In this document: in pieces, positions 18,187-22,052 of the stretch
How the letters are laid out: each line of letters begins with the position of its first letter
Position numbering within the stretch: position 1 is the first letter of the stretch
Assembly (NCBI GenBank): GCA_017307375.1
Contig: JAFKFH010000025.1
Location: forward strand, 1 to 64,000
Direction of reading: 5' to 3'
DNA length: 64,000 nucleotides
Origin: Alphaproteobacteria bacterium
GTDB lineage: Bacteria; Pseudomonadota; Alphaproteobacteria; Ferrovibrionales; Ferrovibrionaceae
Made by a program: the position numbers and the translations under genes
The notes under the pieces: model-generated
Seen by the model: only the letters and a program-made list of their open reading frames with translations
Database searches by the model: none
What the model was told of the DNA's origin: nothing

Positions 18187-18255
18187 TGCGCCAGCCTCTT
18201 ATCCGCCCCGCCCAAGCCTTGTATAACACGGGCGCCGGCTGGCGATGGAGGGATG

Positions 18256-18957
18256 ATGACCACGGTACCCGGGACGAGGGCGGGCGAGACGTTGCCGCTG
18301 CATCGGCGCATCGGCGCCTTCGCGCTGCGCGAATTCCACCATGTGATGCCGCCGACGCTGTTCTTTGCCGCCGGGTTCTGCCTGATCGTCGCGACCCAGC
18401 GGCTGCTGCTGGGCGAATACCTCGCCGAGCTGGCGGGGTTCATGGTCGCGATCACCTCGGCGCTGGTCGTCGGCAAGGCGGTACTGGTGGCCGACAAGAT
18501 GCCGTTCCTGCGCCGGTTCGACAATGCGCCGCTGATACGGCCGATCCTGTTCAAGTCGGTGGTCTACTGGAGCTTCGTGTTCATCGCCCGCTTCCTCGAA
18601 CGCGTGCTGCACTACGTCCTGGACGAAGGCCAGTTCGCCGGCTTCTTCGCCGATCTCGATGCCAATTTTTCCTGGCATCGGTTCCTGTTCATCCAGATCT
18701 GGATCCTGGTGCTGTTCCTGATCTACACCAGCGCGGCCGAATTGAACGCGCTGCTGGGCGACGGCGAATTGTGGAAGATCTTCTTCACCCGCCGCTCGGA
18801 CGACCTGAAGCGGACGCGGCGCCAGCGCGTGCGGGCACTGGTGCGCCTCAATGCGATCCTGCGCGGCAATACCGTCGCCGCCCTGCACGATCCGGCCAGC
18901 CCCGCCCATCGCGAGGCGATGGCGGTGCTGGAAAGCCTCGCGCGCGACGCCCGCTGA
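18256..18957 (+). CDS. Conserved-looking membrane protein of unknown function
   Basis: A 233-residue protein with about four membrane helices: around TLFFAAGFCLIVATQRLL, AGFMVAITSALVVGKAVLV, PILFKSVVYWSFVFIARF and RFLFIQIWILVLFLIYTSA. The C-terminal 70 residues are soluble and basic (RRSDDLKRTRRQR). No enzyme motif seen. Two adjacent ATGs (18253, 18256) follow GGAGGG at 18247-18252; the second has the better spacing. No neighbour gives a clear function. Confidence 0.75.
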   Translation: MTTVPGTRAGETLPLHRRIGAFALREFHHVMPPTLFFAAGFCLIVATQRLLLGEYLAELAGFMVAITSALVVGKAVLVADKMPFLRRFDNAPLIRPILFKSVVYWSFVFIARFLERVLHYVLDEGQFAGFFADLDANFSWHRFLFIQIWILVLFLIYTSAAELNALLGDGELWKIFFTRRSDDLKRTRRQRVRALVRLNAILRGNTVAALHDPASPAHREAMAVLESLARDAR

Positions 18958-19460: not shown

Positions 19461-20333
19461 TCACGCCTTGCGCGCGTGATCGGCAATCGCGGCGACGAAG
19501 GCCGGAACCAGCGCCTCCGGCAGATCGTGCCCCATGCCCGGGAAGGTCTGGAGGACAGCGCCCGGTATACGCGCCGCGAGATCGCGACCGTGTTCGACCG
19601 GACGCACCGGGTCGGCCTCGCCATGCAGCACCAGCGTCGGGCAGCCGATGCGCGCGACCAGGGCACGACGGTCGCCCGACGCCATCGTGGCGGCCGCCTG
19701 CCGGACGATGCCCGACGGATCGTAGTCGCGATCGATCTGGCGGGCGTAGAAGGCATAGGCCTCGTCGTCGGTCATCGGATAGGCCGGGCTGCCGATGGCG
19801 CGGCGCACCCGCATGCCCAGCCCGATCACCTGTTCGCGGTCGGCGGGGTCGTCGGGTTGCGCCATCAGGGCGGCCCGCGCCTCGGGCGTGCCGGGCGGCA
19901 GGTCGGCCGCATGGGTCGAGGCCATGATCAGGGTCAGGCTGCGGCAGCGCGACGGATGATCGGCGGCAACGATCTGCCCGATCGCGCCGCCCATCGACAT
20001 GCCGACGAGATGGACCCGGTCGAGGCCAAGTGCGTCGAGCAGACCGACGGTATCGGCCGCCATGTCCGACAGCAGGTAGGGCGCCCGTGCGTTGCCGGCA
20101 GCAATGGCAGCCAGATCGGGCTGGCCGGCGGCGTCGAACTTCTGCGACAGGCCGATATCGCGGTTGTCGAAGCGGACGACACGAAAGCCGGCGGCGGCGA
20201 GGCCGTCGATCATGGTTTCCGGCCAGAAGGTGAGCTGGGCGGCGAGGCCCATGATCATCACCATCGGCTCGCCATCGGCGGGACCGACCGCCTCATAGGC
20301 GATTCTTACACTATTGCCAGTTACAAAACCCAT
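19461..20333 (-). CDS. Alpha/beta hydrolase (RdmC-like)
   Basis: A 290-residue alpha/beta hydrolase. MVMIMGLAAQLTFWPE is the oxyanion strand (Met in place of His), VRFDNRDIGLSQKFD is typical of the aclacinomycin-methylesterase-like group, GMSMGGAIGQ holds the nucleophile and GMGHDLPEAL the catalytic His. An in-frame start at 20429 is possible, but MGFVTGNSV at 20333 has GGGGACG about 6 bases upstream and the usual family N-terminus. The substrate is not known; probably a methyl or acyl ester. Confidence 0.85.
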   Translation of the reverse strand: MGFVTGNSVRIAYEAVGPADGEPMVMIMGLAAQLTFWPETMIDGLAAAGFRVVRFDNRDIGLSQKFDAAGQPDLAAIAAGNARAPYLLSDMAADTVGLLDALGLDRVHLVGMSMGGAIGQIVAADHPSRCRSLTLIMASTHAADLPPGTPEARAALMAQPDDPADREQVIGLGMRVRRAIGSPAYPMTDDEAYAFYARQIDRDYDPSGIVRQAAATMASGDRRALVARIGCPTLVLHGEADPVRPVEHGRDLAARIPGAVLQTFPGMGHDLPEALVPAFVAAIADHARKA

Positions 20334-20448
20334 ACAGACGTCCCCGTGGACAGTGTGGCAGAATCTCGCATGAAAGAGGATCGGTGCATGACTGTATTGC
20401 GCAAGCCGGGGTTGCTTCGCATCCCGCACTGCGGCATCATCTTCAGCA

Positions 20449-20464
20449 TTAACTAATTATTAAC
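20449..20464. promoter_or_regulatory. CtrA-type binding box
   Basis: TTAA at 20449-20452, seven bases, then TTAAC at 20460-20464: an exact match to the full CtrA consensus TTAA-N7-TTAAC. It lies about 40 bases upstream of the 20505 start codon, a normal promoter-overlapping position. CtrA is the alphaproteobacterial master regulator of cell cycle or motility genes. Confidence 0.6.
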
Positions 20465-20504
20465 CAATTGTCCAAGATTACCCGAGTTTACTAGAGGAAT
20501 GCCG

Positions 20505-20936
20505 ATGCGCGGCGCAGTCGCCCCTTCAATGGCCCGTGTGCTGATGCCTGACGAGTTCGCCATCCGGCGGGCTTACAAGGCCATCAACATGAAGGGCAAG
20601 CGCGACACCTTCTCCAACCAGTTCCACAAGCGCCTCTACGAACTGCAGCCCAAGCTGGTCGAATCGCTGTCGCCCAACCAGACCCAGCAGAAAAAACGCC
20701 TGATGCTGCTGCTGGAGGCGATCATCGACAAGATCGGCGACGACGGCTCGGCACCGGCGACGCGGCCGCCGCAGGAGGCGCGCGACACCAAGCTGTCGTT
20801 TACCGACCTGCGCATGCAGCACATCACCCTGGCCTTCGTCGACGCGCTGGAGTTCTCGACCAACCAGTCGCTGTCGCCGCAGGCGCACGAATGGTTCGAA
20901 AGCCACGTCCGCTCGGTGCTGGGCGAATCGATCTGA
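20505..20936 (+). CDS. Small helical protein, possibly globin-like
   Basis: A 143-residue mainly helical protein. RDTFSNQFHKRLYELQPKLV followed by QTQQKKRLMLLLEAIIDKIG recalls the B-E helix part of bacterial globins, and ITLAFVDALEF with SPQAHEWFESHV resembles the G-H region, but identity is weak and haem ligands cannot be confirmed (a His is present in LRMQHIT). The ATG at 20505 is chosen over 20499 because AGAGGA at 20493-20498 then has correct spacing. A CtrA box lies upstream, so cell-cycle or motility-linked expression is possible. Confidence 0.7.
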   Translation: MRGAVAPSMARVLMPDEFAIRRAYKAINMKGKRDTFSNQFHKRLYELQPKLVESLSPNQTQQKKRLMLLLEAIIDKIGDDGSAPATRPPQEARDTKLSFTDLRMQHITLAFVDALEFSTNQSLSPQAHEWFESHVRSVLGESI

Positions 20937-20957: not shown

Positions 20958-22052
20958 TCAGGCGCCGGCGGCGACGCGCGTCCAGACCTTGAGGGCCTGA
21001 ACCGTTTCGGCAACGTCGTGCACGCGCAGGATATGCGCGCCGGCCGAGGCCGCGGCCAGGGCGGCGGCGATCGATCCGGCCTGGCGCCGGTCCGGCTCGC
21101 GCACGCCGCTGGCCGCCCCGACGAAGCTCTTGCGCGACAAGCCGGCGAGGATCGGACGGCCGAGGGCATGCAGCGCGGCCATGCCTTTCAGCAACGCGAA
21201 ATTCTGCGCTTCGGTCTTGGCGAAGCCGAAACCGGGGTCGATCACCAGGCGCTCGCGCGCGATGCCGGCGGCTACCGCATGGTCGATCCGCGCAGCCAGT
21301 TCCTCGACGATATCGACGATCAGGTCGTCATAGGCCACGCGGTCCCGCATCGTCGTCGGGTCGCCGCGCATATGCATCAGCACGACCGGCACGTCGAGCC
21401 CCGCCAGCAGGTCGGCGGCGCCGGGATCATGACCCAGCGCGCTGACGTCGTTGACCATCGCCGCGCCGGCGGCGACCGCCGCCCGCATCACCACCGCACT
21501 GCGCGTATCGACGGCACAGCGCACGCCGTCCTCGGCCGCCGCGGCGACCACCGGCAGGACGCGGGCGCATTGCGTGCCGGCATCGATCTCGCGCGAGCCG
21601 GGGCGGGTCGATTCACCGCCGATATCGAGCAGGTCGGCACCCGCGGCGACCAGCCGGCGGGCATGGCAGATCGCCTCGGCCGGCAGGTCATGCCGCCCGC
21701 CATCGGAAAAACTGTCGGGGGTGACGTTGACTATGCCCATGACCAGCGGATGCGCCAGATCCCAGCCTGCAAGGATGGGACGATATTCCAGCCGGCTGAG
21801 GGCATCGGCCAGACGCGGCTCCCGCGCCGCCAGCGCGCCGGCCGCCGGCCGGTCGAGCCGCGTATCCCACAGGGTGCGGCCCGCGTCGCGCACAACGACC
21901 CGCAGGCGATGCCAGGCAAGGCCGGTGCCGTTGAGCCTGGGCTCGTCACGGCTGGCCCAGGCCACCGCATCGGGCAGGGCCCAGACGGTGCCGAGGGGCA
22001 AAATGTCAGGGCCCGCCGAAGGCGGGCCCTGGATCGTCGTGGCTGTCGTCAC
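20958..22052 (-). CDS. folP: Dihydropteroate synthase
   Basis: A 364-residue enzyme that joins 4-aminobenzoate to hydroxymethyldihydropterin diphosphate in folate synthesis. Core motifs: VMGIVNVTPDSFSDGG, DIGGESTRPGS, NDVSAL, VVLMHMRGDPTTM, IDPGFGFAKT and LAGLSRKSFVG. The roughly 100-residue N-terminal extension is common in alphaproteobacteria. The nominal GTG start at 22052 is 4 bases from the ftsH stop, but a terminator-like hairpin (22008-22030) lies over codons 8-15, so TTG 22001 is an alternative. Usually followed by glmM in this order, but not here. Confidence 0.93.
   Translation of the reverse strand: MTTATTIQGPPSAGPDILPLGTVWALPDAVAWASRDEPRLNGTGLAWHRLRVVVRDAGRTLWDTRLDRPAAGALAAREPRLADALSRLEYRPILAGWDLAHPLVMGIVNVTPDSFSDGGRHDLPAEAICHARRLVAAGADLLDIGGESTRPGSREIDAGTQCARVLPVVAAAAEDGVRCAVDTRSAVVMRAAVAAGAAMVNDVSALGHDPGAADLLAGLDVPVVLMHMRGDPTTMRDRVAYDDLIVDIVEELAARIDHAVAAGIARERLVIDPGFGFAKTEAQNFALLKGMAALHALGRPILAGLSRKSFVGAASGVREPDRRQAGSIAAALAAASAGAHILRVHDVAETVQALKVWTRVAAGA
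21999..22030 (-). terminator. Terminator-like hairpin after ftsH, inside the folP 5' end
   Basis: Perfect 10-bp stem (AGGGCCCGCC / GGCGGGCCCT, 22008-22030) with a 3-base loop, followed on the minus strand by GACATTTTG. It sits about 27 bases after the ftsH stop. It could terminate or attenuate ftsH transcripts before folP. Confidence 0.55.

Follow-up and report, generated by a model that had tools for sequence, protein, structure and literature searches.

Single-domain bacterial globins (PF00042), such as the Vitreoscilla-type and Hell's Gate globin-like proteins, are the described proteins closest to the 143-residue protein considered here, which has their helix order in common with them, as well as the B-helix core, Gln E7, Pro49 and the H-helix Trp, and both types are among the structure matches listed for its alignment-based model; the protein differs from the PF00042 globins in having none of the residues His F8, Phe CD1 and Tyr B10. 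Globin folds that hold no haem have also been described. The N-terminal domain of RsbR is reported as a globin fold without haem that forms the receiving end of the stressosome signal (PMC6614362), and the N-terminal sensor domain of MabR as a globin fold without the iron-binding His (PMC11617747). Compared by description, RsbR carries a C-terminal STAS domain, which is absent from the 143 residues, where the globin-like region is all that is found, and MabR, a protein of Actinomycetes, has GGDEF-like and HTH domains, unlike the single-domain protein. In the CtrA circuit of Caulobacter, MopJ is described as a stand-alone sensor-type PAS protein that tunes the circuit (PMC4432633); its fold is PAS and not globin, so that the analogy is one of role only. 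A search of the open full-text literature for CtrA together with globin gave, among the papers listed, no title on a CtrA-controlled globin. On the more doubtful reading given below, in which the protein has become part of the CtrA cell-cycle circuit, direct control of a globin by CtrA would be seen here for the first time. A haem-free globin under CtrA would also be an instance from nature of a globin retained after ligand loss.

The window, i.e., the whole stretch of 64,000 nucleotides that was analyzed, has a GC content of 68.5%, and TTAA is rare in it, two of its 12 occurrences forming the box listed in Table 1. That an exact TTAA-N7-TTAAC stands about 40 bases before a 143-residue open reading frame, as an earlier note on this DNA had stated, was confirmed: this is the single exact match in the 64-kb window, and its 3' and 5' ends lie 40 and 56 nt, respectively, upstream of the ATG at 20505. 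Among 100 dinucleotide shuffles of the window, a match occurred in one, with a mean of 0.02 exact boxes. Local mononucleotide shuffling recreated the site in 0.05 to 0.16% of the sequences (94, 54 and 159 per 100,000 for 20335-20504, 20400-20504 and 20430-20498, respectively), and local dinucleotide shuffling in 0.05 to 0.08% (9 and 16 per 20,000 for the first two of these stretches).

Table 1. Features of the region around the CtrA box (window coordinates)
Feature	Coordinates	Strand	Basis
Exact CtrA consensus TTAA-N7-TTAAC, TTAACTAATTATTAAC	20449..20464	+	Predicted CtrA site; presumed -35 position
AGAGGA, probable ribosome-binding site of the 143-residue ORF (ATG 20505)	20493..20498	+	Motif read directly; role presumed
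143-residue divergent globin-like protein, stop included	20505..20936	+	ORF, profiles, alignments
Alpha/beta hydrolase, divergent neighbor (ATG 20333)	19461..20333	-	Pfam PF00561, 7.2e-25
Presumed folP-like dihydropteroate synthase, convergent neighbor, synteny anchor	20958..22052	-	

The frame itself is coding, with strong codon bias: its GC content by codon position is 0.62/0.40/0.90, and its codon log-likelihood is 57.7, compared with -111.2 and -68.1 for the two remaining forward frames and with 7.3, 3.3 and -123.4 for the reverse ones. An in-frame ATG at 20499 offers an alternative start, giving 145 residues, and the AGAGGA motif appears better spaced for the ATG at 20505. The intergenic region that holds the box is common to the hydrolase and the globin-like gene; the convergent neighbor is one that we take, from sequence motifs, to be a folP-like dihydropteroate synthase. 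The window also contains a 235-residue frame with membrane-like stretches (18250-18954, forward strand), which has no Pfam or NCBIfam match. A sigma-70 consensus scan found no promoter for the globin-like gene. In Caulobacter, the 5' end of the full CtrA motif is reported to lie most often in the -35 region (PMC4287350). If the 5' end of the present box likewise lies near -38, transcription would start near 20487, and the leader would be shorter than 20 nt and would carry the AGAGGA motif.

Kinship to the globins was not apparent in searches of Pfam-A, NCBIfam and the PDB. Pfam-A returned no family for the protein even at E 10, PF00042 being without a match; NCBIfam gave one insignificant row (0.18), and the PDB, searched by sequence, three weak rows, the best at 0.044, with no globin among them. 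Among the weak matches in the class, single-domain globins and globin-MCP proteins were frequent, and globin frames were found in 16 of the 29 loci fetched (L002-L030, besides the protein's own locus). A profile of 15 globin domains from 14 of these loci, in which the globin frames of L010 and L026 and the second globins of L014, L021 and L027 were left out, scored the protein at 27.9 bits, the best of the 1579 shuffles reported (2000 were made) reaching 7.9; it is to be noted that these globins had been found with the query itself, so that the set favors it. A second profile was built for this reason, with the genome's own canonical globin (L031) as bait; this yielded 42 loci, from which 39 domains were kept. 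This profile gave the protein 19.3 bits, against 8.7 for the best shuffle and -0.9 for the reversed sequence (4538 entries were reported of 5000 shuffles plus the reversed sequence), and of 1487 ORFs none scored above 7.0 bits apart from globins and the 143-residue protein; the confident alignment is confined to residues 33-80. In a recheck among 534 ORFs, the protein was retrieved at E 4.1e-5, the next row that was not clearly a globin standing at 0.034, and hhalign gave globin homology a probability of 85.5 and an E of 5.8e-6. Identity to globins is 15-20%.

Structure prediction came out on both sides. Without an alignment, AlphaFold2 reached a pLDDT of 50.2, and no globin was among the 50 structural matches listed; with the 15-globin alignment, it produced seven helical elements (pLDDT 80.9, pTM 0.74), and all 50 matches listed for this model were globins, the best with Z 12.5 and rmsd 3.0 over 124 aligned residues. 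RsbR is not one of these 50, which speaks for neither side. Foldseek returned no match for the alignment-based model at E <= 0.001. Since this model leans on the true globins in its alignment and is thereby biased, since its Foldseek matches lay above E 0.001, and since a Z of 12.5 is ambiguous with this aligner, in which values under about 13 can reflect a common helical arrangement, the case for kinship was rested on the profiles. These place the protein above all reported shuffles in two separate tests and support it as a distant globin relative. The earlier description of the protein as globin-like thus stands as distant homology, carried by the 27.9 and 19.3 bits and by the alignment-based model; the structure prediction that had been suggested as its check looks like a globin when given the globin alignment, which biases it, and does not when given the single sequence.

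The same alignments point to the loss of the usual haem pocket. The proximal His F8, Phe CD1 and Tyr B10 are each present in 39 of 39 globins; in the 143-residue protein they are replaced by Asp94 (in both alignments), Leu55 and His41, respectively, so that the first two, by which a haem globin is recognized, are both missing. Met104 stands in place of a Tyr that is conserved close to the beginning of helix G. What is kept includes Gln E7 (Gln62), the H-helix Trp (Trp130), Pro49 and the B-helix core. Histidine occurs at positions 41, 106, 128 and 134 only, with none at 42-105, and there is no Cys; therefore, in any register of the alignment, no His of the E or F helix is available to ligate iron. 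The globin alignment runs without a gap through the F region, and the F helix amounts to four residues in the alignment-based model. As read from these alignments, the usual haem pocket is gone, and haem would be absent from the folded protein. The link to oxygen or redox sensing that had been drawn in the earlier note consequently finds no support as a haem function, and the haem-binding His that it proposed to look for was sought and not found at F8 or elsewhere in the E and F helices. One canonical globin with His F8 is encoded elsewhere in the genome, at C28, and is free for oxygen or NO work.

A regulator able to use the box is present. The genome encodes a CtrA orthologue that is 77% identical to the Caulobacter CtrA sequence used as query and scores 423.3 bits against NCBIfam NF045991, for which the cut-off is 350; its gene adjoins a divergent fliJ (Pfam FliJ, 1.2e-8). 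In the family, ctrA was found at E <= 1e-70 in 15 of 18 genomes, including 11 of the 11 of high quality. The 300 nt before ctrA contain three to five TTAA per locus in 14 of 15 loci (mean 4.6), the fifteenth having no recognized start and being left out of the count. The controls had a mean of 0.56 before 27 homologues of a PAS gene described below (27 of 30 loci, its own gene and two short loci being left out) and two in all before nine globin genes. This enrichment over both controls makes it very likely that CtrA of this family acts on groups of TTAA. Their commonest spacing is N9 (12 of 14 loci), and exact N7 occurs in 4 of 14; several of these promoters are nearly identical in sequence. 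The ctrA promoter of the present genome has, instead of an exact N7, TTAA-N6-TTAAC, an arrangement reported for Caulobacter ctrA P2 (PMC11264516). A recurrent site resembling TTAA-nnnnn-GGTAAA was also seen within 300 nt before ctrA in L161-L170 and L172-L175. The globin-like gene therefore has what is looked for in a member of the CtrA regulon, namely a consensus box in its promoter and CtrA in its genome, and its control by CtrA is plausible from the exact box, the placement of this box, the presence of CtrA and the TTAA-rich ctrA promoters of the family.

On the scale of the whole 7.54-Mb genome, the exact pattern occurs four times, the box studied here included, against seven for the same pattern read backwards, i.e., without excess; without the final C, the numbers are 8 forward and 23 backward. 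This control is biased against the box, and less weight was placed on it, because TTAA holds stop codons, which are avoided in genes, and the backward pattern does not. A comparison of spacings is fairer and favors N7 modestly: TTAA pairs separated by N7 number 8 genome-wide, and the remaining nine spacings in the range 3 to 12 have 27 sites between them, a mean of 3.0, which gives a Poisson tail of 0.012. As regards the other three exact boxes, one starts 38 nt upstream of a single-domain PAS gene that resembles MopJ (L035/L131; genome C16:621537-622030). This gene matches NCBIfam NF051868 at 7.5e-9 with 35.6 bits, under the cut-off of 200 of that model, and the genome has five such PAS matches at E <= 1e-8. 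Another box is flanked by two divergent genes, of which one, with 75 residues, is HTH-like (Pfam 0.0087, under the family cut-off), and the remaining one has no convincing gene beside it. The occurrence of exact boxes before both a PAS and a globin-like single-domain gene is suggestive and no more. A search with the PAS protein gave 54 matches, from which 30 loci including its own were taken, two of them short and with a possibly misplaced upstream stretch; in the 300 nt examined, the exact N7 box was found before none of the 29 homologues besides the gene itself, and a one-mismatch N7 site before 5 of the 29. The exact box was likewise found in none of the nine loci examined for further globin genes of the family (L031, L053-L060); in L054, a site with one mismatch stands some 160 nt upstream of the globin.

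No orthologue of the 143-residue protein was found in 60 other relatives, of which 17 belong to the same family; the genomes searched include one of its own genus, namely its own. Across 385 genomes of the class, a row at E <= 1 was obtained in 66, its own included, and the sole other genome under 0.001 (G253) offered an ordinary globin with His F8, which is not an orthologue. The genome_contigs collection gave 32 pattern stretches, in a search that finds close relatives only, and the viral contigs gave four, none of them confirmed as an orthologue in either case; the one plasmid row, at E 0.8, fell inside a methylase, and the phages gave no match to the protein. Synteny was followed through folP, which is present in 17 of the 18 family genomes, the present one included; when flanks of at most 1.5 kb around these 17 folP loci were searched with the globin profile, a globin-like frame was found at the protein's own locus only.

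Taken together, the gene probably encodes a haem-free single-domain globin under CtrA control, and as far as sequence can tell, a globin that signals through proteins is more likely than an oxygen carrier. We give about an even chance (roughly 0.5) to a reading in which CtrA drives the expression of a haem-free globin that serves as an interaction or sensing module. In such a scheme, the protein would descend from a globin as a single domain in which haem is no longer held through a proximal histidine; phosphorylated CtrA would bind the box, which would overlap the -35 region, and would switch on the gene whenever CtrA is active, be it at a stage of the cell cycle or in the motile phase; and the haem-free fold would then act on a partner as a small interaction or sensing domain, in the manner of RsbR or MopJ. 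Here, the sequence itself shows the box, the coding frame, CtrA in the genome, distant homology to globins and the loss of the F8 and CD1 residues; the binding of CtrA, activation rather than repression, the absence of haem from the folded protein, and the signaling role are what we infer. A more doubtful proposition, to which we would give perhaps one chance in five, is that the CtrA cell-cycle circuit has recruited the protein as a stand-alone regulatory domain, a globin counterpart of MopJ.

The alternatives differ in which part of this reading they deny. The gene could be the relic of a globin, in decay or without function, and its box the chance product of an AT-rich intergenic stretch; the lack of an orthologue in the collections searched, the extreme divergence, and the fact that exact boxes do not outnumber the pattern read backwards would all agree with this, and the intact frame with its strong codon bias and likely ribosome-binding site, the local improbability of the box in the shuffles, and the retention of Gln E7 and the B-helix core speak against it, leaving it unlikely, though still the strongest of the competitors. 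Somewhat less likely again is that haem is still bound through an unusual ligand (His41, His106 or a rearrangement) and that the protein senses O2, NO or redox. Globin homology, the retained Gln E7 and the His at B10 leave room for such binding, a globin in which the proximal and distal sites have changed places has been described (PMC4476040), and CtrA and redox regulators are reported to interact (PMC7232146); the stretch between residues 41 and 106 without His, the absence of Cys, the lost CD1 Phe and the four-residue F helix of the model weigh on the other side. Such cross-talk between CtrA and redox regulation keeps the broader redox idea alive, though not by way of haem in this protein.

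Hardly different in its low probability is the denial of globin kinship altogether, by which the protein would be a small helical protein whose profile similarity amounts to one amphipathic helical pair. The empty Pfam result, the confinement of the confident profile match to residues 33-80 and the single-sequence model with no globin among the matches listed are as this would predict; two profiles well above their shuffles, the gapless F region and the kept H-helix Trp are not. Quite improbable, finally, is that the box serves the divergent hydrolase, or that CtrA represses there: the intergenic region is indeed common to both genes, and the box read on its reverse strand departs from the consensus at one position, but the box lies 115 nt from the hydrolase start as opposed to 40 nt from that of the globin-like gene, and the exact orientation faces the latter. 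The preferred reading remains that of a haem-free globin expressed under CtrA.

Two observations concern other globins met in the course of the searches. Four genomes of the family (L057-L060) carry a second divergent type of globin in which, by eye, no CD1 Phe is evident, and in L057 the F8 position is occupied by Tyr, in place of the His of its relatives; the loss of haem may be under way there too. In addition, short globin-MCP proteins, with frames of about 245-260 residues, were seen at L016 (977-1756), L017 (938-1672) and on the minus strand of L019. For L016, the one tested with Pfam, both Globin and MCPsignal were matched, and at L019 the short globin-MCP gene adjoins a gene for a single-domain globin. 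These short proteins look like compact chemotaxis sensors.
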